Source: Arcobacter lacus
GTDB taxonomy: Bacteria; Campylobacterota; Campylobacteria; Campylobacterales; Arcobacteraceae
Assembly (NCBI RefSeq): GCF_003063295.1
Contig: NZ_MUXF01000019.1
Location: 367,919 to 431,918, forward strand
Direction of reading: 5' to 3'
Length of the DNA stretch: 64,000 bases
Every line of letters starts with the position of its first letter. Within the stretch, counting starts at the first letter, position 1. Under the pieces are notes generated by a model. That model made no database searches and was not told where the DNA came from. It saw only the letters and a list, made by a program, of their open reading frames with translations. Shown here piece after piece: positions 4,899 to 17,729 of the stretch. The translations under genes and the position numbers were made by a program.

Positions 4899-5498
4899 TT
4901 AGTCTTTTTTTAATACATCATGTATAACTGTATATTTTCCTAACCATAAACTTATAATATCTGTTGCAGTTTGAGCACCATATCCTGCAGCTGAACTAAA
5001 CATTGAAGTTGCACCTGCTGCACAACCTGTTACATATTTACCTTCACTAATTATTCCATCAGTATTTTCAATCATAACCATTCCAGGTCTTGGTGCTCTA
5101 ATATGTCCTATAACTGATGCACCTATTCCTTCAACATCAATTTTTTGCATTCCATTAGCAAATATAATTAAACTTGCTTCAAATTTTTGATTTTCAGTAT
5201 TTACAATAAACTCGCCAACATTTCCAGATACTGAAATAACATTATCACTTTGTAAAGTTATTCCATAAGAAAGAGTTTTTGAAACCATTGATTTTAATAA
5301 TTCAGATCCTTTTGTACCCTCTTTTATACCTGCTACATTATGTAGTTCTGCCATATTTAAATGAGAAGAACCAGCATCTATTACTAAAATATTTTTATTT
5401 GATAATTCTTCTATTTTTAATTTTGCTGATCTTAAAGTTATTGCACAAGATAATCCAGAAACACCACCACCAATAATTATTACATCATACTTATTTAT
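4899..5498 (-). CDS. small FAD-binding protein of thioredoxin-reductase type, apparent ATA start
   Basis: The open frame runs from a stop at 5508-5510 to 4899 and encodes about 199 residues. It begins with a clear FAD Rossmann motif, YDVIIIGGGVSGLSCA, then LVIDAGSS, and ends with VTGCAAGATSMFSS before a helix. The central NAD(P)H domain of thioredoxin reductase is missing, so it is about two thirds of the usual length. No ATG, GTG or TTG precedes the FAD motif in frame; the first in-frame ATG (5354) would delete it. ATA at 5498 sits 5 nt after AAAGGA, and a mini-ORF ATGATGTAA overlaps the start out of frame. A mutated or true non-AUG start is the simplest reading. It probably works with the SDR downstream. 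Confidence 0.65.
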   Translation of the reverse strand: MNKYDVIIIGGGVSGLSCAITLRSAKLKIEELSNKNILVIDAGSSHLNMAELHNVAGIKEGTKGSELLKSMVSKTLSYGITLQSDNVISVSGNVGEFIVNTENQKFEASLIIFANGMQKIDVEGIGASVIGHIRAPRPGMVMIENTDGIISEGKYVTGCAAGATSMFSSAAGYGAQTATDIISLWLGKYTVIHDVLKKD

Positions 5499-5514
5499 TT
5501 TATTCCTTTACAAT

Positions 5515-5541
5515 AATATACTTGTCAAATGCAAGTATATT
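5515..5541. promoter_or_regulatory. palindromic operator 1, MarR-type
   Basis: Perfect inverted repeat: 10-bp arms AATATACTTG / CAAGTATATT around 7 nt. It covers the probable -10 of the leftward FAD-SDR operon. It shares the TACTTG/CAAGTA core with operator 2, 38 bp away. Confidence 0.65.
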
Positions 5542-5554
5542 TTTTTGAAACTTA

Positions 5555-5577
5555 AATACTTGTTAAAGACAAGTATT
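5555..5577. promoter_or_regulatory. palindromic operator 2, MarR-type
   Basis: Perfect inverted repeat: 9-bp arms AATACTTGT / ACAAGTATT around 5 nt. It covers the -35 region of the MarR gene, as expected for autorepression. Confidence 0.65.
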
Positions 5578-5586
5578 ATTTTAATA

Positions 5587-5595
5587 TGATATAAT
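5587..5595 (+). promoter_or_regulatory. extended -10 of the MarR gene, possibly leaderless
   Basis: TGATATAAT is a full extended -10 whose last base is 5595. The ATG begins at 5602, the expected first transcribed base, and there is no Shine-Dalgarno sequence. Confidence 0.5.
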
Positions 5596-5601
5596 TTGTT
5601 T

Positions 5602-6039
5602 ATGGAAAAAGAAAATTTTAATTTACAAAGCTCTTTTGGCTATCACTTTAGTATCATATTTATAAATATAAAAAAATCTATGGAACTGAAGTTAAAGCCA
5701 TACAACATTACTCATTTACAATTTAGTATTCTTATTAATATTTATAAAAACAATGTAACTACGCAAAAAGAGTTATTAAAATATACCTATGGTGATGAAA
5801 CGAGCATTACAAGATTAATTGATAGATTAGAGGTAAAAGGTTATTTACAACGTATTGCTTGCGAAAATGATAAAAGAAAAAAAGAACTAAAACTAACCCA
5901 AAGTGGGATTAATTTAGCTGAAGAAGTTATCTCTTGTGCAAGAGAAGTTAATGCAGAACTTGTTAAAGATATGGATAATGAAGAAGCAAAACAACTTCTT
6001 AATTTACTTCAAAAAGTAAATATAACTTATGATGATTAA
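5602..6039 (+). CDS. MarR-family transcriptional regulator
   Basis: About 145 residues with the MarR winged helix (residues about 30-110): KPYNITHLQFSILINIY, then TTQKELLKYT, DETSITRLIDRLEVKGYLQR and the wing DKRKKELKLTQSG. I chose the ATG at 5602 over an upstream in-frame TTG because the -10 ends at 5595. It diverges from the FAD/SDR operon, with two near-identical palindromes between them, so it most likely represses both itself and that operon. Such regulators often sense electrophiles or oxidants; the signal here is unknown. Confidence 0.9.
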   Translation: MEKENFNLQSSFGYHFSIIFINIKKSMELKLKPYNITHLQFSILINIYKNNVTTQKELLKYTYGDETSITRLIDRLEVKGYLQRIACENDKRKKELKLTQSGINLAEEVISCAREVNAELVKDMDNEEAKQLLNLLQKVNITYDD

Positions 6040-6057
6040 ATAAAAATAAATATTTAC

Positions 6058-6123
6058 TTTTATATTTTTAGGCAATCATTTTGTATTATTGTTCTACTCT
6101 CATTTTTATAATTCTTATATACT
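6058..6123 (+). promoter_or_regulatory. possible weak sixth AraC-type operator and promoter
   Basis: TTTTATATTTTTAGG (6058-6072) and TTTTGTATTATTGTT (6079-6093) have the 21-bp period, then 24 nt to TATACT (6118-6123). The match to the half-site is only about 11 and 9 of 15 in AT-rich DNA, so this rests mainly on geometry. Confidence 0.3.
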
Positions 6124-6202
6124 AATAATAGATTTAATGGCTATTTTATAGCTTTATATAAACAAATAAAAAATAAGTTTTAAAAGAAGGTATAAATTAA
6201 AA

Positions 6203-7063
6203 ATGAAGAATTGTACTAACAACAAAAATATAAATATTATAAAAGATGAAGTTTTTGAAGGTGAAAGACCACTTTTTAAATCTTCATTTACAAATTTAAT
6301 CAATTGCAAATTTACAAAAGGAGAATCTGCATTAAAGTTTGCAAAAGAAGTTAATGCAATAGATTGTGAATTCTCAAGCAAATATCTTTTTTGGCATGAC
6401 ACAAATATAAATATTCAAAAATCTCAATTTTTTGAAGGTGGAAGAGCAAGTATTTGGTATTCAAATGAAATTTTATTAGAAGATTCAAAAGTTGATGCTC
6501 CAAAAATATTTAGAGATGCCAAAAATATTATAATCAAAAATTCTCTTTTAAATACAAATGAAACTTTATGGGATTGTAAAAATATAACTATTAAAAACTC
6601 AAAATTTACTGGAGATTATCTACTTCTTCATAGTAGTGATATTCTACTTGATGATTTCTTTTTAGATGGAAACTATTCATTTCAACATACAAACAACATG
6701 ACTGTAAAAAATGCAAATATAAATTCAAAAGATGCATTTTGGAATAGTGAAAATGTTACTGTTTATGATTCTATAATTGAAGGAGAATATTTAGGTTGGT
6801 ATTCAAAAAATTTAAAATTCGTAAATTGTAAAATTATTGGAACTCAACCTCTTTGTTATATTGATAATCTAATTTTAGAAAATTGTGAGATGATTGATAC
6901 TGATTTAGCATTTGAGTATTCTACATTAACTGCAGATATTACTACATCTATACAAAGTGTAAAAAACCCAATAAGTGGATTTATAAAAGCAAAAAATATA
7001 GAAGAATTAATTTTAGATGATGAAAAAGTTATTCATCAAGAACTTAAAATAATTACAGAATAA
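6203..7063 (+). CDS. DUF3737 family right-handed beta-helix protein
   Basis: A 286-residue protein made of short repeating strands (for example NIIIKNSLL, NITIKNSKF, NMTVKNANI, NVTVYDSII), the pattern of a right-handed parallel beta-helix. It opens with EVFEGERPLFKSSF, typical of DUF3737. There is no signal peptide or membrane segment, so it is probably cytoplasmic. The SD is weak. It is followed after 9 bp by a MalY/PatB aminotransferase, a pairing I recall from other bacteria. Function unknown. Confidence 0.8.
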   Translation: MKNCTNNKNINIIKDEVFEGERPLFKSSFTNLINCKFTKGESALKFAKEVNAIDCEFSSKYLFWHDTNINIQKSQFFEGGRASIWYSNEILLEDSKVDAPKIFRDAKNIIIKNSLLNTNETLWDCKNITIKNSKFTGDYLLLHSSDILLDDFFLDGNYSFQHTNNMTVKNANINSKDAFWNSENVTVYDSIIEGEYLGWYSKNLKFVNCKIIGTQPLCYIDNLILENCEMIDTDLAFEYSTLTADITTSIQSVKNPISGFIKAKNIEELILDDEKVIHQELKIITE

Positions 7064-7072
7064 AGGTCAATA

Positions 7073-8236
7073 ATGAAATACAATTTTGATGAAATTATTA
7101 ATAGAAATAATACCAATAGTTCAAAATGGGATACAACAGAAGATGGAGTACTTCCAATGTGGGTTGCTGATATGGATTTTAAAGTTGCAACTCCTATTAT
7201 TGATTCTATATTAAAAAGAGCACAACATGGAGTTTTTGGATATACAATGATTCCTAAAAGTTATTATGATTCAGAAATTTTATGGTGGGAAAAACGTCAT
7301 AATTTTAAAATAAAAGAGGAATGGATTGAACCAACTGTTGGAGTAATTCCTTCGTTAAGTGCAGTTGTTCAAGCATTTTGCAAAGAAGGAGATAAAGTAC
7401 TTATTCAATCTCCTGTATATAACTATTTTAATTCTTCAATTACAAACAACAAATGTGAAATTGTAGTAAATAATTTACTCTATGATAACAAAAAATATAG
7501 TATTGATTTTAAAGATTTTGAAGAAAAAGTTAAAGATGAAAAAGTAAAACTTTTTATTTTATGTAATCCTCATAATCCAGTTGGTCGAGTTTGGACAAAA
7601 GAAGAACTTACTTTAATGGGAAATTTATGTGTAGAGAACAATGTAATTATTCTTAGTGATGAAATTCATAGAGATTTAGTTTATAGTGATTACAAATATA
7701 CTCCTATTGCATCAATTAGTAAAGAAATTTTAAACCAAAGTATTACTTGTACGGCTCCAAGTAAAACATTTAATCTTGCAGGATTAAAAACTTCTAACAT
7801 AATAGTTGCAAATCAGGAGTTTAAAGCAAAAATCAATCGTTCTTTAAATATAAATGAAACTATTGAGCCAAATGTTTTTGGTATTGAAGCCTTAATAAGT
7901 GCATATACTTTATCAGATAGTTGGTTAGATGAACTTTTAATTTATTTAGAAAAAAATAGAGATTTTGTCATAGAATATATAAATAAAAATATTCCCAAAT
8001 TAGAAGTTATAAAACCAGAAGCAACTTATCTTTTATGGATTGATTGTTCTAAACTTGGTATAAATTCACAAACTTTAGTTGATAAAATTTTAGAAATTGG
8101 AAAATTGCGTATCGCATCAGGTATCACTTATGGAAAAAATGCAAACGATTTTATACGAATAAATATTGCATGCCCTTTAGAGGTAGTAAAAGATGGATTA
8201 GAAAGACTTCATAAAACAATCAAATACCTAGATTAA
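7073..8236 (+). CDS. MalY/PatB-family PLP-dependent C-S lyase/aminotransferase
   Basis: A 387-residue fold-type I PLP enzyme. It has the family start WVADMDFK, the substrate-loop NPHNPVGRVW, SDEIHRDLVY, and the PLP lysine in APSKTFNLAGLKTSN (near residue 233). Family members cleave cystathionine or cysteine conjugates to a thiol, ammonia and pyruvate. The ATG follows AAGG. It forms an operon with the DUF3737 gene and converges on the second AraC regulator; a hairpin covers both stop codons. Confidence 0.9.
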   Translation: MKYNFDEIINRNNTNSSKWDTTEDGVLPMWVADMDFKVATPIIDSILKRAQHGVFGYTMIPKSYYDSEILWWEKRHNFKIKEEWIEPTVGVIPSLSAVVQAFCKEGDKVLIQSPVYNYFNSSITNNKCEIVVNNLLYDNKKYSIDFKDFEEKVKDEKVKLFILCNPHNPVGRVWTKEELTLMGNLCVENNVIILSDEIHRDLVYSDYKYTPIASISKEILNQSITCTAPSKTFNLAGLKTSNIIVANQEFKAKINRSLNINETIEPNVFGIEALISAYTLSDSWLDELLIYLEKNRDFVIEYINKNIPKLEVIKPEATYLLWIDCSKLGINSQTLVDKILEIGKLRIASGITYGKNANDFIRINIACPLEVVKDGLERLHKTIKYLD

Positions 8237-8247
8237 TTAGGTATTTG
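8221..8247. terminator. bidirectional terminator over two convergent stop codons
   Basis: Perfect 10-bp arms CAAATACCTA / TAGGTATTTG with a 7-nt loop, followed by ATTTTT on the plus strand. The hairpin includes the stop codons of both the aminotransferase and AraC genes. Confidence 0.75.
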
Positions 8248-9154
8248 ATTTTTCTCTTAAAAATTCTGCATGAGCTTTTGGAGACATTCCAAACATTCTT
8301 GAATATTCTCTACTAAATTGTGAAGGGGACTCATATCCAACGGCATATGCCACTTCGCTGGCTTCTATATTTTGATTTAAAAGCATTAATTTTGCTTCTT
8401 CAAGTCGAATCTTTTTTTGAAATTGAATAGGAGACATTGAAGTTATAGTTTTAAAATTTTGATATAAAGATGATTCACTCATATCAATCATTTTTGCTAA
8501 TTCTTTTATATTTAGTTTTTCATTGAAATTATCTTTTATTTCTGAAATTACATGTACTATTTTATTTGAAACAGTACCTTCCATTGCAAATTTATTTAGA
8601 AAATATCCGCTTTTATCATTTATCAAAATAAATAAAATCTCTTTTAATACTAAAGGATAAAGATATTCTATCTCTTCTTTTGATTGATTTAGAAGTTTTA
8701 TTAATCTATAAACAGGATCATAAAGTTTTTCATTTAATTCATCAAAAAATAGTCCTTTTTCCGATTTTGCAATCTTTTGCAATTTTTCAGAACTAATATT
8801 TTTAATTACTTCATAAATATCTTCTAAATTGAATTTAATTCTAAAAGATACATAAGGATTTTCTTTATTTACTTCCGATATTTTTACTTTTGCTGGAACA
8901 TGAGTAGAAGATAACAAATAATCTTTTGGACCATAACTATAAAGTTCATTTCCAAATCCAACTGCTTTATTACCTTGTAAAATAATACATAAAGATGGTT
9001 CATAAATAATTGCATTAAACTCTGTAGGTTCAGATGTAAAGTAAAAATCTAAATTAGGAATTTCAGTTTGTAATCCACCTTCAATATCCAATGTAAATTT
9101 TTCTTCTATTAATTTAAGAGTATTAACTCGATAATTTTCTATAATATCTTCCAT
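8237..9154 (-). CDS. second AraC-family regulator with AraC_N domain
   Basis: A 305-residue paralogue of the regulator at 1988-2854. The AraC_N part includes YEPSLCIILQGNKAVGFG (about 51-68), and the C-terminal HTH pair includes ELAKMIDMSESSLYQNFK and EVAYAVGYESPSQFSREYSR. The ATG at 9154 follows AGGA with 7-nt spacing. It diverges from the cupin operon; the region between carries operators on both strands, one in its own promoter, so autoregulation is likely. Confidence 0.9.
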   Translation of the reverse strand: MEDIIENYRVNTLKLIEEKFTLDIEGGLQTEIPNLDFYFTSEPTEFNAIIYEPSLCIILQGNKAVGFGNELYSYGPKDYLLSSTHVPAKVKISEVNKENPYVSFRIKFNLEDIYEVIKNISSEKLQKIAKSEKGLFFDELNEKLYDPVYRLIKLLNQSKEEIEYLYPLVLKEILFILINDKSGYFLNKFAMEGTVSNKIVHVISEIKDNFNEKLNIKELAKMIDMSESSLYQNFKTITSMSPIQFQKKIRLEEAKLMLLNQNIEASEVAYAVGYESPSQFSREYSRMFGMSPKAHAEFLREKSNT

Positions 9155-11465: not shown

Positions 11466-14441
11466 CTAGACACTTTTATTTAAAATTTCCATTATTAATT
11501 TTTCTTTTTTTAATTTAATTTTTGAACTTCTTTTAGTACTATTTTCATGTAAATACCAATATTCATATATAAATATAGGTTTTTTAGATAATTCAACTAA
11601 AGGTATCATTGTTCCATAATCTGTACATTCACTAATCCACTCATTATCAATCTTAAAATATTTTTCTTTATCTATTTCATCAAATAATCTTTTTTTAAAA
11701 GCTCTTAAATGTGTCCAAACATTTGAACCAAACTTTTTTCTACAATCTAAATAATCAGGTATATATAATTTAAGTGCTTTATTTGGTCTAAACATTCCAC
11801 CTTGAATTAAGTCATAACCTTTATTAAGTAACTCTTTTAATTCCAATATAATATCCCTATCTATTAAAGCATCATCCAAATCTAAAATCACAATTAATGA
11901 TTCTTTATTAGTACATATATCACTTATTGCTTTTATAAAATTTGGAATGCGCCCCTTATTTTCATAGTTTCTGACAAGAGTAGTTCTATAATTTAGATTA
12001 TCTAATATTGAAGGAATTTTTATTCCTAAATCATTTGAAGCATCATCAATTACAATTATTCCAAAATCTTGATTTGTTTGCATTTTTAGACTTGCAAAAC
12101 ATCTATTTATTTTTTCTTTTGATGTATTACGTCCTTTTATCAAAAATATAATTTCTTCATTTCTATGTTGATAATTCCATAATTCAGGTAATCCCATTAA
12201 ATCCCAATTTTGGAATTGAAAGTTAGGTATTTTTACTTGATTAACTAAATCTTGTATTTCAAAAAACTTATTAATATCTTTTTTCCAATGATTATGGGGA
12301 TGTATATAAAATGTATCAGAGTTACCTCCTCTTAATGTTTTTTTATTGTTTTTTCTTTGTTTAATATGTAAAGCTCTAAACCATGATAATTCTAATTTTT
12401 CATTTTTAACTTCGTTTTCTAAAGGTAATAATCCTTTTATTAAATCTAAATCCAATAAACCACATCTCACTTCCGGGACATACTCTCCAATTGGTGCATC
12501 ATATTTTCTAAAACCTTTTTCAAAAGGTATATTAAATGCTACAGATATAGTATCTTTCTGTTTTATTGCAGTTAACATATCTTTTAAATAGTCATGAGAT
12601 AAATTCTTTTTACCAATTAATATATCAATATCGCATTGTAATAAATATTGTGTCTTAACTTGTTCAAAAGCCCAAATTTGGGGAAAAACTGGTGCATTTT
12701 TATTAGTATGTGTTTCAAAACATTCTAATCCAAACCATTTATTATTAATTTTAATTATTTCATTTTTATCATTTGGAGAAATTAATATTCTGTCAATAAT
12801 ATTTTTTTTCTTCAATTTTTCAGCCAATAAAACTATTCTATTTAAATTAGGTTTTTGATATTGTCTTAAAAAATTGTTTTCACGAGAATCAATTAATAGA
12901 ATTTTTTCAAAAAAACTTCTTGGTATTTCTAAATTAAAAACTATGTGTTTTACTTGTTGTTCTAATATCTCATAATCCATTGCGCACGTTTTTATCATTA
13001 ATGTGCATTTATCTGTTTTTTTGTTTTCAAACAGCTTTTCATTTATTAAAAAAGGTTTTAAATTTGAATTATAATAACTCTTTAATAAATCATTATAAAA
13101 CTCAAAGAATCCTGCGATATTATTAAAAACATCTTCTTGTCTTATATAATTTATATTTTTTCTTCTTTGAAATTCATGGTCATCATAATTTAATGCAGAA
13201 ATACAATATAATCGAGCAGCTGAATCTATAAAATATTTAATATTCATAGAACTTATTGAATTTCCAATATCTATATAAATAAGTTTTTTATTATATATTC
13301 TAAAATTTGAACGTTTTATATTAACACATACTATTTTCTTATTTAAACAATATAACAAAAAATCTTTCGCTTGTTCTATTGTAATTGTTTTACAATCTTC
13401 TGAAGGAAAATATTTATAACTACAAATCCATGATGATTTTGTTTTTATCCAATTTACTTTAGGAATAAATTTATCATTTTCATTTACAATATTATTTATT
13501 TTCTCTATTTGGTTTAAATCAATAGTATCAGGATAAAAATATTTTTTAACTAAATTTTTATTTTTAAAAACTATTCCCTCCATTCCATAGCCTAAAAATT
13601 CATTCTTCTCAAAATCTAAGCTTTTAACTAATAAAAAAGTTTGATATAATCTTTCTCTATTTTTTTGATGAATACTATTTTGTTTATTTTTAATAGAACT
13701 TTTACCACTTAATGAATAATCACAATAACTAAAATTTTCTACAATTACACCATTATCAGAATGAAAAAAAAGAAGTTGAGATACTAACCAATGATCTTCA
13801 GCACTTTTAATATCAGGATATCTAAATCCTGTATTTGCTCTAAGAATTAAATTACAAGAAGGCAATTCATTATATGCATTATTTAAAGCCATATTTTTTA
13901 ATATTTTAATTAAAACATTTTTATTGCTTAACTCTTTTGATGCAAAATTAACTTTTGAGATAAATTTATCTTCTATTTTTAACCTATTTCCACCTAAAAT
14001 AAAATGAATATTTTTATACTCTCCACTTTGACACATTTTAGATAAAGAATTTGTTGAACTAAATACATCATCAGCATCTAATCGAGCAACCCACTTAGGA
14101 CTACTAAAATTTTTATCTACAAAATCTAAAATTGCATTTCTTGATCTAGCTGGACTACCACAATTAGCCCTTAATACTAATATATTATTTAATAATAACT
14201 CATCTTTTACATAAATCATCCAATTATCATTTGATGAATCATCCAAAATCACAACAGCGCATAAATCAAAGATATCTTGATTAATTATACTATTAATACA
14301 TTTTTTTATAGTCTTTGAATTATTATGTAAACTTACACCAACTATAATTTCTTTTTTTAAAATTTCATAGATATTTTTTTCTGATACAATTTTCAGTTCT
14401 TTAGAACTTAATATTTCTTTGGGAATTGGTTCATTCATCAT
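11466..14441 (-). CDS. multidomain glycosyltransferase with embedded kinase-like domain
   Basis: A 991-residue protein with four regions. Residues about 32-265 are a GT2 domain (IIVGVSLHNNSKTI, VVILDDSSND, RLDADD). About 283-420 look like a degenerate protein/LPS-kinase fold: glycine loop LGYGMEG, LVKKYF lysine, VNIKRSNF in place of the catalytic HxDxxxxN, and YIDIGNS as a DFG-like metal site. About 478-750 form a second GT-A-like domain (LLQCDIDILIG). About 762-975 are another GT2 domain (FGIIVIDDASND, VILDLDD). No signal peptide or membrane segment. It begins 3 bp after the radical SAM gene. Each GT is plausible; the whole architecture is unfamiliar to me. Probably builds a surface glycan or modifies a protein (inference). 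Confidence 0.75.
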   Translation of the reverse strand: MMNEPIPKEILSSKELKIVSEKNIYEILKKEIIVGVSLHNNSKTIKKCINSIINQDIFDLCAVVILDDSSNDNWMIYVKDELLLNNILVLRANCGSPARSRNAILDFVDKNFSSPKWVARLDADDVFSSTNSLSKMCQSGEYKNIHFILGGNRLKIEDKFISKVNFASKELSNKNVLIKILKNMALNNAYNELPSCNLILRANTGFRYPDIKSAEDHWLVSQLLFFHSDNGVIVENFSYCDYSLSGKSSIKNKQNSIHQKNRERLYQTFLLVKSLDFEKNEFLGYGMEGIVFKNKNLVKKYFYPDTIDLNQIEKINNIVNENDKFIPKVNWIKTKSSWICSYKYFPSEDCKTITIEQAKDFLLYCLNKKIVCVNIKRSNFRIYNKKLIYIDIGNSISSMNIKYFIDSAARLYCISALNYDDHEFQRRKNINYIRQEDVFNNIAGFFEFYNDLLKSYYNSNLKPFLINEKLFENKKTDKCTLMIKTCAMDYEILEQQVKHIVFNLEIPRSFFEKILLIDSRENNFLRQYQKPNLNRIVLLAEKLKKKNIIDRILISPNDKNEIIKINNKWFGLECFETHTNKNAPVFPQIWAFEQVKTQYLLQCDIDILIGKKNLSHDYLKDMLTAIKQKDTISVAFNIPFEKGFRKYDAPIGEYVPEVRCGLLDLDLIKGLLPLENEVKNEKLELSWFRALHIKQRKNNKKTLRGGNSDTFYIHPHNHWKKDINKFFEIQDLVNQVKIPNFQFQNWDLMGLPELWNYQHRNEEIIFLIKGRNTSKEKINRCFASLKMQTNQDFGIIVIDDASNDLGIKIPSILDNLNYRTTLVRNYENKGRIPNFIKAISDICTNKESLIVILDLDDALIDRDIILELKELLNKGYDLIQGGMFRPNKALKLYIPDYLDCRKKFGSNVWTHLRAFKKRLFDEIDKEKYFKIDNEWISECTDYGTMIPLVELSKKPIFIYEYWYLHENSTKRSSKIKLKKEKLIMEILNKSV

Positions 14442-14444
14442 TAT

Positions 14445-15299
14445 CTATTTTTTCCAATTACTATAAAACAATTTCCAAGTTTCTGAAGTTTCTTGTTCTA
14501 AGATAGGTTTTCTTATATTTTTAGGAATATAGTGACCATCTCTAAATCTTCCACAATATTGACAAAACTCTCTAGCTAAATCTAACATATTATCTGAATT
14601 ATCAGGTAAAGTCTTATAACCTATATTTTTTTTAATTATCCTATCAATTCCTCCTGCAATAGCACATGGATAATATCCCATAGGAGTTAACCCCATACCA
14701 CAATCTTTCATAATAGCACAACCATTTGAATAATCAACAAATATATTTTTCTTTTCATCAATTGGAGCTAAATTAAATGGTCCAAACTCTGGTTGTATTA
14801 TGCTTTCTTTATTTGAATTTTCAACCCATATCTCTTTTGGTATTTGACTTATTATATTATTTACTTTTTTCCCATTTCCATTTGTTACAACCTCTATTAT
14901 AACTTTTTGGTAAAAATTTTTATATCTTAATAATTCATTTATTATTGTAAAAAAATCTGGATGTAATGTAGGCTCTCCACCTAATATTCGAATACGTTTC
15001 CAAAATTTATTAAGATTAATTGATTCATCAACAAAATTTATTATTTTTTCAACTTTTATATGAAGTTTTTCGGGAGCCTGAGCAGAAGAACGATTACAAT
15101 TATTACAATATAAATTACAATGATATGTAATATCTATTTCTATATATTCTCTACTTCTTGTATATTGTGGTCCCCAATATTTAGTTATAAATTTTTGTAT
15201 TCTTAAAAATCTAAAAAGAGAAAAAAATTTATATTTTAATTTTCCTATTAAAATCTTTTTTTCTGAATATCTAGTAGGATTATTAAAACTATTAGACAC
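14445..15299 (-). CDS. radical SAM protein of the glycosyltransferase island
   Basis: A 284-residue radical SAM enzyme. The [4Fe-4S]/SAM motif is CNLYCNNC (about residues 56-63), followed by the GGEP SAM-binding motif in RILGGEPTLHP. The C-terminal part has more cysteines (GCAIMKDCGMG, YYPCAIAGG, FCQYCGRF), suggesting SPASM-like auxiliary clusters. The start is GTG at 15299, preceded by AGGAGA inside the preceding gene and overlapping it by 8 bp, so translation is probably coupled. Substrate unknown; context suggests a sugar or a small glycosylated product. Confidence 0.85.
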   Translation of the reverse strand: MSNSFNNPTRYSEKKILIGKLKYKFFSLFRFLRIQKFITKYWGPQYTRSREYIEIDITYHCNLYCNNCNRSSAQAPEKLHIKVEKIINFVDESINLNKFWKRIRILGGEPTLHPDFFTIINELLRYKNFYQKVIIEVVTNGNGKKVNNIISQIPKEIWVENSNKESIIQPEFGPFNLAPIDEKKNIFVDYSNGCAIMKDCGMGLTPMGYYPCAIAGGIDRIIKKNIGYKTLPDNSDNMLDLAREFCQYCGRFRDGHYIPKNIRKPILEQETSETWKLFYSNWKK

Positions 15300-16131
15300 T
15301 AAAATCTCCTACTAATGTTTTATTTATAGGTATATATTTAATATTTTTTATTTCTATTTCTTTTATTCCAAAACATTTATCTGCTCTTTCAAAAAAAGCT
15401 TTTTCAAGTTCCTTATTAAAAAATTCTTTATAAATATACCAAAACCATTGAAGTCCCAATATTTTAGGATAAGAACGAGGAATTGATAATGAATTTGGAT
15501 CTGATTCATGAAACCAAGTAGAAGTCCATTTGTTAGTATATGCAACATTAAGTCCAGGAATACTTAAAATTCTAAAAGCTAAATCTCTATCATTTGTACT
15601 TAATAATCCATTTCTAAACCCTTTAACTTTTTTCAAAATTTCAAAAGAAACAAAAGTATTAGAACCTTGCCATCCAGGATTTCCAACTAAAAAATCAGAA
15701 GAAAGTAAATTTGTAGGAATTTTTCTTTTAGAGACAATACCTTTTTTAATCATTCTCAAACCTGATATAACTACATCTGCGTTATTATTTTGAATTGCTA
15801 TATCATAATTAACTTTTAAATGTTCAGTATCCCAAGTATCATCATCATCTAATATTGATACATAACCAATAAAATTGACTTTAGATAAATAAAAAAGTCC
15901 TGTATTTAAGCTACCTGCAAGACCTTTTTCATATTTATTATTTAAAATAATATAATTTATATTTTTAAAATAATAATCAATTCTTTTTATATCTATTTTA
16001 GTAAATATTTTTCCATCATTAACTAAAATTAGTATATCAGGTTTTAAAATTTGATTACAAATACTTACAAAACATCTTGAGTATAAAGTTTCTCGTAAAT
16101 TTTGAGTTGTGATAATTACAGATATATTTAT
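15292..16131 (-). CDS. GT2-family glycosyltransferase with apparent ATA start
   Basis: The frame is open from 16131 to 15292 and encodes about 279 residues. The N-terminal GT-A fold is complete: SVIITTQNLRETLYSRCF, ILILVNDG, YEKGLAGSLNTGL and the metal-binding ILDDDDTW. The C-terminal half has GNPGWQGSNTF and NDRDLAFRIL. A stop (TAA) lies four codons upstream of 16131. The first ATG/GTG/TTG in frame is the TTG at 15759, which would remove the catalytic half. ATA at 16131 lies 6 nt after AAGGA, ideal spacing, so ATA is the best start. It precedes the radical SAM gene with an 8-bp overlap. Acceptor unknown. Confidence 0.7.
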   Translation of the reverse strand: MNISVIITTQNLRETLYSRCFVSICNQILKPDILILVNDGKIFTKIDIKRIDYYFKNINYIILNNKYEKGLAGSLNTGLFYLSKVNFIGYVSILDDDDTWDTEHLKVNYDIAIQNNNADVVISGLRMIKKGIVSKRKIPTNLLSSDFLVGNPGWQGSNTFVSFEILKKVKGFRNGLLSTNDRDLAFRILSIPGLNVAYTNKWTSTWFHESDPNSLSIPRSYPKILGLQWFWYIYKEFFNKELEKAFFERADKCFGIKEIEIKNIKYIPINKTLVGDFSV

Positions 16132-16171
16132 CTTTAGTCCTTATTCAGTTATTTATAGGTATTTATATTGG

Positions 16172-16708
16172 TTATTTCTCTTTAAATATTATTTCATTTA
16201 CATCATATTCTTTTAAAGCTTCTGAAATTACTTTTTGAATATTCTTATCATTTAATACATCTTTAACCGACCAAACAAACTTATCATAAGTTAAAGCTGA
16301 TTCTTCTAAACCAACAAATCCTATTTTTACATTACTATTATTTACAGTAGGAGTTAAATTGCATTTATCTTCTAAAGAAGATTTTTTATAATATTCTGGA
16401 TAACAATAATTTACAAGATTTTCAAAGTTATTAATCATTGGAGGAACCCCTGCAGTTTTTGTCAAATAAAAATATTTTATTCCCTCTTTATCAAAAGTTT
16501 GAGCTGCTTTATTAATCATTAAAGCTATATTTTGAACTTCAATGATTTCATCTCCTGAACTTGTTTCAACACTACCATCAAATGAAATATAATCAACTTT
16601 ATTAGTGTTCTTATTTGGATATGCTTTCATTGGTATTTCATTTGGTGCACAAGCTGTAAATAACATTGTTATCAAAGATATACTTACTATATTTATAATT
16701 TTTTTCAT
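16172..16708 (-). CDS. putative lipoprotein
   Basis: A 178-residue protein with a lipoprotein signal (MLFTAC, lipidated Cys near residue 20). The mature part is mixed alpha/beta, has two further cysteines (NYCYPEYY and DKCNLTP), and is not a family I recognise. ATG follows GAGGAAA. It lies 15 bp after the gene at 16724 and 40 bp before the GT2 gene, so read-through into the island is possible. Confidence 0.7.
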   Translation of the reverse strand: MKKIINIVSISLITMLFTACAPNEIPMKAYPNKNTNKVDYISFDGSVETSSGDEIIEVQNIALMINKAAQTFDKEGIKYFYLTKTAGVPPMINNFENLVNYCYPEYYKKSSLEDKCNLTPTVNNSNVKIGFVGLEESALTYDKFVWSVKDVLNDKNIQKVISEALKEYDVNEIIFKEK

Positions 16709-16723
16709 GAATATTTTCCTCTT

Positions 16724-17221
16724 CTACTTAAATAACTTTTTTTGATCATCTGAAGCAATTTGTTTTACTTCATCACTAGTTATTTTATCATTTGAAACGA
16801 CTAATGAACCAATTAATGTAGCTTTTTTATCTTCATTTTCAGCCATAACTAAATAGATATATTCATTATCTTCAACAGCTTTATTATAAGCTCCTATACC
16901 AACCGCTGTTAATATTCCTAAACCAGCAGTAACCAAACCTCCATCTAAATTTCCAGCACTATTGCTAAATGTCCCAGCAGAAGCTTTTGCAATTTCAGTT
17001 GTTGCATCTAGAGTAAAATTAAATGTTTCTCCCATCAATTTGCTTCTAAAAATTTCATTATATTTTTTACTAAATTCTTCTGTTGTTCCACAAAAAATTT
17101 CTTTTGTTTGAGTATTTTTAGACAATTTCAAATCTAGTGTTTTTGCAGAAAAAACTTGTATTTCATTTGCAAATAAACAATTTGCCACCAATGATATACC
17201 TATAAATGATTTTTTTAACAT
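16724..17221 (-). CDS. exported protein of unknown function
   Basis: A 165-residue protein with a signal peptide (ending NCLFA, residue 18). A Gly/Ala-rich hydrophobic stretch (about 95-118, GLVTAGLGILTAVGIGAY) could be a membrane-inserted hairpin. SD GAGGGG is strong. Probably in one operon with the lipoprotein. No family recognised. Confidence 0.65.
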   Translation of the reverse strand: MLKKSFIGISLVANCLFANEIQVFSAKTLDLKLSKNTQTKEIFCGTTEEFSKKYNEIFRSKLMGETFNFTLDATTEIAKASAGTFSNSAGNLDGGLVTAGLGILTAVGIGAYNKAVEDNEYIYLVMAENEDKKATLIGSLVVSNDKITSDEVKQIASDDQKKLFK

Positions 17222-17257
17222 ACTTTTCCCCTCTTTACTAAATATATTTTTATTTTA

Positions 17258-17623
17258 TCAAATTCTTTTAATAAACTTTTTTTCAATCTCTAAATCATTT
17301 AAGTTTGAATTATCTTCATTTATAAATCCAAAGAAATATTTTTCATCTTTATATAAAACTTCAATTACCAAAATGTTATCGTCTTTATGATTTTCTACAA
17401 ACTTTTCTATTGCTTCAAATGCAGAATTTTTCCAGTACTTTTCAATTTCACTATTATTTCCTGCATCAAAAAACATACAATCTTCACACATAGAAAAAAG
17501 ATAATTTCCAGCACCTTCATATATTTCAAAAGAATTATTGTCATTATCTAATTTCTCATTTGTAAATGGGCAATATAAACTAAAATTTCCTATATTTTCA
17601 AGTTTTAATACTAATTTATTCAA
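17258..17623 (-). CDS. small cytoplasmic protein of unknown function
   Basis: A 121-residue acidic protein without signal peptide. Three cysteines (YCPFTNE and CEDCMFF) might bind metal. The start is TTG at 17623 after AAAAGGA, with a TATAAT -10 at 17650-17645. First gene of the leftward group that leads to the glycosyltransferase island. No family recognised. Confidence 0.6.
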   Translation of the reverse strand: MNKLVLKLENIGNFSLYCPFTNEKLDNDNNSFEIYEGAGNYLFSMCEDCMFFDAGNNSEIEKYWKNSAFEAIEKFVENHKDDNILVIEVLYKDEKYFFGFINEDNSNLNDLEIEKKFIKRI

Positions 17624-17729
17624 AAAAATCCTTTTTTTATTGGAATTATACTATATCAATAGCAATTAATTCTAGAAAACTTATATTTATTATCATATAA
17701 TTATAGAAAGGCTCTAACAAGGAAAAAAA

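Follow-up and report, generated by a model that had tools for sequence, protein, structure and literature searches.

What do three tightly packed genes on the minus strand of an Arcobacter lacus contig make, and do they belong together? The genes occupy positions 11466-16131 of the 64,000-nucleotide stretch analysed here (the window; contig NZ_MUXF01000019.1, positions 367,919 to 431,918). They are transcribed in the order glycosyltransferase family 2 (GT2) gene (15292-16131), radical S-adenosylmethionine (SAM) gene (14445-15299, 284 residues from a GTG start) and a gene for a 991-residue multidomain protein (11466-14441). A preliminary description of this DNA had noted that they overlap or lie 3 bp apart, and this holds: the end of the GT2 gene overlaps the radical SAM start by 8 nucleotides (nt), and 3 nt separate the radical SAM stop from the start of the 991-residue gene. 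The GT2 start is corrected here to an apparent ATA codon at 16131-16129. That description also knew of no pathway with this set. Of the Pfam, NCBIfam and PADLOC models scanned, none names the set, and none of the papers listed by literature searches, which had most subscription papers and all preprints outside their scope, describes it; it is likewise not described in the available portions of PMC6231123, PMC9012708, PMC7159879, PMC8743553, PMC6423787 and PMC13279940.

A six-module set that recurs split or fused

We split the genes into six modules, namely four glycosyltransferase (GT) modules (GTA, GTB, GTX and GTC), a kinase-like module (KIN) and the radical SAM module (RSAM), with profiles built from relatives. 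The 991-residue protein (GTB-KIN-GTX-GTC) found nothing as a query of genome contigs, and relatives were recovered with the radical SAM alignment. Scanning a species-genome collection with this alignment gave 39 loci, which is a lower bound as the search used short patterns. GTX was carried by 27 of them and, with the window and three Campylobacterota loci (L016-L018), the carriers amounted to 31 loci spread over scattered bacteria and archaea. The preliminary description had suggested looking for radical SAM genes beside multi-GT proteins, and it is in these 31 loci that the set recurs. All six modules were present in 29 of them, and in the other two (L045 and L053) the locus begins at a contig edge. 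Among the other loci, nine had RSAM without other modules (L034, L036-L039, L046, L060, L065 and L067), L050 and L064 end at contig edges, and L029 is genome G219 again, on the same contig as L015.

KIN, GTX and GTC lay in one frame in 30 of the 30 loci where KIN was seen, and the order GTA-GTB-KIN-GTX-GTC-RSAM was found in 23 of the 29 loci with all modules. In the window and in L030-L032, RSAM follows GTA as a gene of its own, and in L033 it is a separate gene on the opposite strand. Module order is thus fixed apart from the position of RSAM. Three of the 29 loci (L051, L057 and L058) have everything in one frame of 1,583-1,937 residues, the 1,583 residues being those of L057 (Porphyromonadaceae). 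Twelve are cut between GTA-GTB and the rest (including L044 and L063, with gapped or broken frames), five into GTA, GTB and the rest, five into GTA, RSAM and the rest, three between GTA and the rest, and one (L035) has two RSAM copies.

Distances between modules were compared over the 27 loci in which every module scored above 150 bits (tree with one row per locus), and they correlate for 15 of 15 pairs (r 0.68-0.96; 0 of 999 permutations each). From the module order, the fusions and the correlated distances, it follows that the modules are an evolutionary unit, kept together as three genes, two genes or one frame. This upholds, over 31 loci, the earlier proposal that the genes act as a unit, and the finding is larger than first noted, as it concerns a six-module set that recurs split or fused.

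The set is also rare and patchy. Among 298 genomes of the class, searched at 1e-10, the radical SAM protein was matched in six (weakly in G194) and the 991-residue protein in five, the window genome included. Among 397 genomes of the phylum, KIN-GTX was found in five, all within the six that have a radical SAM match below 1e-50; the sixth, G219, has a contig edge inside GTB. Matches in nine more phylum genomes (5e-11 to 1e-8) look like other radical SAM proteins, and 16 other genomes of the genus gave no radical SAM match at 1e-8. Viral contigs contained no relative, and plasmids contained one, from Salinivibrio kushneri.

The archaeal contig of L035 carries two RSAM copies, one fused behind GTA and the other placed behind GTC. 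In an RSAM tree of 40 rows (L029 was excluded, being on the contig of L015, as were the long or partial rows L046, L060, L064 and L067), the first copy grouped with the window lineage (100/97), on a long branch of 1.02, and the second with C-terminal copies (100/99). We tentatively suggest, judging from the sequences, that two RSAM stations existed ancestrally, one following the initial transferase and the other terminal, and that each lineage may have kept one.

Several observations concern individual relatives. Behind the complete set of L047, another archaeal contig, lies a second, broken and partial one (14298-17718) with a GTX-GTC frame and two radical SAM fragments. The set of L017 lies between copies of one transposase-like gene (5599-6300 and 12131-12985), and two copies of a different one lie upstream in L018 (2462-3229 and 5434-6201), the second ending just before GTA. 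An ilvD-like gene near the set in L015 (1395-3083) and L016 (3134-4882), from two Campylobacterota families, possibly marks a shared insertion site. Furthermore, L098 (genome G643) encodes a reduced relative of 937 residues (5475-8288), in which GTA (198 bits) and KIN (111 bits) surround an unplaced middle and which has no radical SAM part; it follows a SLOG-cluster-4 gene and precedes M20 peptidase, asparagine-synthase-like and N-acetyltransferase-like genes.

Predicted folds and chemistry of the modules

The radical SAM protein belongs to its superfamily by PF04055 (37.1 bits; cut-off 29.5) and by its CX3CX2C motif, and the extra cysteines noticed earlier are conserved. All of the 44 rows, two of which are identical, contain CX3CX2C and CX17C, and 43 contain CX2CG. 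Over 40 aligned rows, five further cysteines are kept, with 194 and 212 invariant and 200, 246 and 249 present in at least 90%. A structure predicted from 40 rows (pLDDT 92.3, pTM 0.89) appears closest to SpeY, with a Z of 14.0 over 206 residues and a root-mean-square deviation (rmsd) of 3.3, and to BtrN, with a Z of 12.2 over 183 residues. SuiB is the next protein (Z 10.5), the viperins score 7.8, and Foldseek returned the same top two proteins. Cysteines 194, 212, 246 and 249 are predicted to lie on either side of a hairpin and beyond the helix that follows, which would be the four-cysteine topology of a BtrN-type auxiliary cluster. The BtrN twitch has a four-cysteine auxiliary site around a hairpin and the next helix (PMC6231123, in part), and BtrN is a twitch dehydrogenase according to excerpts of PMC6231123 and PMC9012708; SpeY is labelled a twitch dehydrogenase in the title of its structure entry. 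The likeness to these two enzymes therefore covers the modelled fold and topology, the CX3CX2C motif and the putative auxiliary site, whereas sequence similarity is weak and restricted to the core (1.3e-5 for SpeY and 6e-4 for BtrN), RSAM here lies in or beside a multi-glycosyltransferase protein, and its substrate is predicted. SPASM domains, as characterised in part of PMC6231123, have the seven-cysteine motif CX9-15GX4C-gap-CX2CX5CX3C-gap-C; past the core, only C-X5-C-X11-C and C-X2-C are conserved here, so that this motif is absent. The viperin model NF038283 scored 29.1 bits, far from its cut-off of 180. Since SpeY and BtrN are the nearest matches to the model, we favour a radical-modified sugar as the chemistry, and that half of the earlier suggestion of a surface glycan with a radical-modified sugar gains support from the predicted fold.

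For the transferases, GTA passes the glycosyltransferase family 2 test (PF00535, 43.6 bits; cut-off 23.3), in line with its earlier naming, and so does GTC (11469-12134, by module profile), with 77.3 bits at residues 775-910. PF00535 was counted over two stretches of the 991-residue protein, of which only the best (775-910) was placed. GTB (13623-14366; module profile, 285 bits) is a GT2-like GT-A domain whose sequence profile A1 matches GalT1 (5hea) with an E of 8.7e-10. GTX (12126-13019), detected by its module profile, has no Pfam match in the window copy; PF00535 is unmatched in the window KIN-GTX stretch and matched in 9 of 27 aligned KIN-GTX rows (best 4.1e-5). In an AlphaFold model of residues 276-775 (27 aligned rows; pLDDT 89.1, pTM 0.62), residues 476-746 resemble GT-A enzymes, with GnT-I closest (Z 14.0, rmsd 3.5, 195 aligned), followed by COLGALT1 (Z 13.1), TarP (12.3), LH3 (12.0) and TarS (11.1). 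GnT-I, COLGALT1 and LH3 differ in being eukaryotic and share 8-13% identity in the alignments. To our knowledge, GalT1, TarP and TarS have neither a kinase nor a radical SAM part. Conservation of the acidic metal-site residues reaches at least 95% in GTA (DDDD), GTB (DADD) and GTX (DxD), and GTC has only one conserved Asp at this site.

KIN (13041-13613, by module profile, fold comparison and motif table) has no Pfam match in the window copy and matches solved protein kinases weakly in sequence (E 0.13 or worse), and a fold comparison was thus needed for the kinase call. The earlier description had put a degenerate kinase-like domain at residues 283-420 and proposed a fold search of them; in the model, residues 276-459 resemble protein kinases (Pim-1, Z 11.8, rmsd 3.6, 176 aligned), which are also the top Foldseek matches (E about 1e-5). 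Module profiles and the model together give the domain order GT-A, kinase, GT-A and GT-A, as first described. The window KIN keeps the Gly loop, Lys, Asn and the DFG Asp, and the catalytic Asp is Asn, leaving the active-kinase motif incomplete. Over 30 loci the four kept elements are at least 95% conserved, and the catalytic position is Asp in 20, Asn in nine (the window included) and Thr in one. WbdD and POMK, to which KIN is likened by description alone, are glycan kinases of the protein-kinase fold that act inside glycan pathways; we know of no radical SAM part in either.

The same folds bear on a peptide as the substrate, in which case RSAM would modify a peptide before its glycosylation by the transferases. 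Next in fold after SpeY and BtrN come SuiB and sactipeptide enzymes, and GTX is predicted to fold like the protein glycosyltransferases COLGALT1 and LH3. SpeY and BtrN nevertheless rank above the peptide enzymes by fold, and no precursor peptide emerged from the neighbours: in a search for frames of at least 60 residues in at least three loci, which did not extend to shorter ones, only an epimerase-like frame (11 loci, including L050, which lacks GTX), a QueC-like frame (nine loci, with a short fragment in L054) and a GGDEF gene recurred, and none of these is unexplained. We consider peptide modification most unlikely, and this search neither favours nor contradicts the glycosylated peptide that the preliminary description had offered.

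A putative oligosaccharide assembly line and its alternatives

Taken together, we read the island as a self-contained cytoplasmic assembly line for a short oligosaccharide in which one sugar is oxidised by radical chemistry, and we would give this reading an even chance. Each of the four transferases would add one sugar, in order, from nucleotide donors to an acceptor, and the product would be a short, non-repeating oligosaccharide. By analogy with the action of SpeY and BtrN on aminocyclitols, the radical SAM part would abstract a hydrogen from one sugar carbon and pass an electron to a second Fe-S cluster, yielding a keto sugar. KIN may phosphorylate a sugar in copies with the catalytic Asp, and in the window it probably only binds ATP or substrate. 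A short and cytoplasmic product is what the lack of membrane segments (no 19-residue stretch above 1.6 on the Kyte-Doolittle scale in five of five proteins tested) points to, together with the lack of flippase and polymerase families in the neighbours scanned.

Companion genes fit donor supply and glycan tailoring. Five of the 31 loci (L051, L052, L055, L058 and L061; Pfam was run on L058 only) have an NAD-epimerase-like domain fused in between GTA and GTB, and an epimerase-like gene adjoins the set or lies one gene off in 10 (Pfam was run on L016, L035 and L051), giving 14 loci with such parts, L051 being in both classes. UDP-glucose dehydrogenase adjoins the set in L035 and L051. Because these dehydrogenase and epimerase genes accompany some copies, the donors may sometimes be derived from uronic acids. 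The GTB protein has a C-terminal methyltransferase domain in L040 according to Pfam, and in L041 by reading. QueC adjoins the set in eight loci, downstream in six and upstream in two, and the QueC/Cap9/QatC family is related to the set only as this linked gene; the L057 gene passes PF06508 and TIGR00364. The QueC genes of L040-L044, L056, L057 and L059 keep the P-loop and the CYQP...CGxCLSC tail. Canonical QueC has YPDC at a site where these genes read FWDC or YWDC, and FGDS in L057. QueC is not beside the window copy, and a role for it there was dropped, as the strongest QueC match of the genome is on another contig.

The surroundings also bear on where the product would go. It might be a branch or terminal unit of a lipopolysaccharide, capsule or S-layer glycan that is completed in the cytoplasm and then exported through flippase and ligase genes located elsewhere in the genome. 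Surface glycan loci typically contain GT2 domains and epimerase-like genes, the GTB profile matches GalT1, further glycosyltransferase-like genes lie in L051, L055 and L063, and an ABC-exporter-like gene lies about 2 kb beyond the set in L057 (these four loci by reading). For Campylobacter jejuni HS:19, a radical SAM gene is also listed next to a glycosyltransferase gene in a cluster associated with the capsule (PMC8743553, in part). On the other hand, no flippase, polymerase or exporter family was found in the 12 window neighbours scanned (5.6-22 kb), the rest of the window and the genome lying outside the search, none recurs among the neighbours of the relatives, and in both the window and Salinivibrio the set stands away from glycan genes. 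The surface half of the original suggestion is thereby weakened, and we judge it unlikely.

A free saccharide product, such as a small secreted oligosaccharide or glycosylated amide with an antibiotic or signalling role, seems quite unlikely to us. SpeY belongs to an antibiotic pathway, and small-molecule tailoring is suggested by QueC in 8 of the 31 loci and by the asparagine-synthase-like (AsnB), M20 and N-acetyltransferase-like genes beside the reduced relative. BtrN also comes from an antibiotic pathway (PMC9012708, in part). No transporter or resistance gene recurs, though, and the reduced relative has no radical SAM part.

The modified glycan or glycoside might also be made for defence against phages. 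Eight of the 31 loci have defence-type genes on the same stretch (GmrSD in L040, L042 and L052; PglZ/BREX in L041 and L059; type I restriction in L056; AbiEi in L030; an SNF2/ResIII helicase in L032), the spread is rare and patchy, and QueC enzymes occur in type IV CBASS and qatABCD (PMC13279940, in part). PADLOC, run on 173 of the 223 neighbour proteins, gave 221 families in 88 proteins and 61 in 85; a control set of 90 proteins, taken out of 162 frames and coming from 8 of 15 random stretches of Bacteroidota DNA, gave 23. These counts are overstated by redundant families, the proteins of the eight loci were chosen partly by eye, and the control is small and itself has defence-type matches (TIR, viperin and Pycsar). 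Moreover, no PADLOC model fits the set: at 0.01, the 991-residue protein and GTA had no match and the radical SAM protein matched pVip over residues 53-142 only (34 bits). No defence gene was among the window neighbours scanned with Pfam. The defence association is a lead only, and we hold an anti-phage role to be very unlikely.

Several points weigh against the assembly line itself. No activity is known for any member of the set and no acceptor gene was found. SuiB, which modifies peptides, and the viperins share the radical SAM core, and fold alone is no proof of a sugar substrate; the sequence profile ranks two other radical SAM proteins (2e-7 and 9e-7) above SpeY and BtrN, all in the core only, and the best NCBIfam match is MoaA, far under its cut-off. 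Fused modules must correlate in distance, so that the separate-gene modules are the informative ones. Co-occurrence is biased by gathering the loci through the radical SAM part, which nine of them carry alone, and a KIN-GTX search of 395 Bacteroidota genomes returned only its own centre and a distant KIN in a protein without radical SAM. The HS:19 listing and the glycan- and export-like genes of L051, L055, L057 and L063 count on the same side. Finally, with no catalytic Asp in its kinase and no normal start in its GT2 gene, the window copy may be partly inactive.

If the assembly-line reading is true, the set would be a recurring, transferable recipe for a radical-oxidised oligosaccharide, in genes that one annotated record names only 'glycosyltransferase' and 'radical SAM protein'. 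The one-frame copies would be a whole pathway in one protein, making the order of sugars and radical glycan chemistry testable in one tube, and the uses of twitch radical SAM enzymes would extend past antibiotic aminocyclitols. A bolder claim, which we put forward as rather doubtful, is that of a new kind of system: a transferable, template-free line, sometimes one polypeptide, that would make a fixed short glycan by radical chemistry and a kinase step; some lineages would also have an epimerase built in, or a QueC step adding an amide, nitrile or deazaguanine group.

The window copy and its surroundings

The GT2 frame runs from stop to stop over 15292-16140 on the minus strand and contains no ATG, GTG or TTG before 15759, which is 372 nt in frame past the ATA codon at 16131-16129. 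It is with this ATA that the ATG start of the L015 relative aligns at the GTA N-terminus, and AAGGA lies six nt upstream of it (site within 16129-16142). Judging from the sequence, either a rare ATA start codon seems to be in use or the normal start seems to have been lost or damaged.

The island has a guanine-cytosine content of 23.1% and the window one of 25.6%, which is weak evidence as 4.7% of same-size windows are equally low. Promoter-like and terminator-like sites gave nothing clear (63 versus 60.4 in shuffles and 2 versus 1.1 in shuffles), and neither did a repeat scan. An empty-site comparison gave no island borders: the flanking lipoprotein-like gene was present in 1 of 31 genomes of the genus, namely that of the window, and the other flank had short matches only, located elsewhere. 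Three small neighbours lie at 16172-17623, and 16172-16708 had no match in the 30 other genomes of the genus, so that the accessory region is wider than the three-gene set.

Two proteins without a Pfam match occur beside relatives. One, of about 120 residues, is encoded twice near each of two loci, L041 (11367-11723 and 14028-14378) and L098 (11224-11583 and 15764-16123). The other is a hypothetical protein of about 255 residues, whose gene in Photobacterium (L033, 10871-11629) and Salinivibrio (L068, 12880-13650) separates the radical SAM gene from the convergent GT genes.

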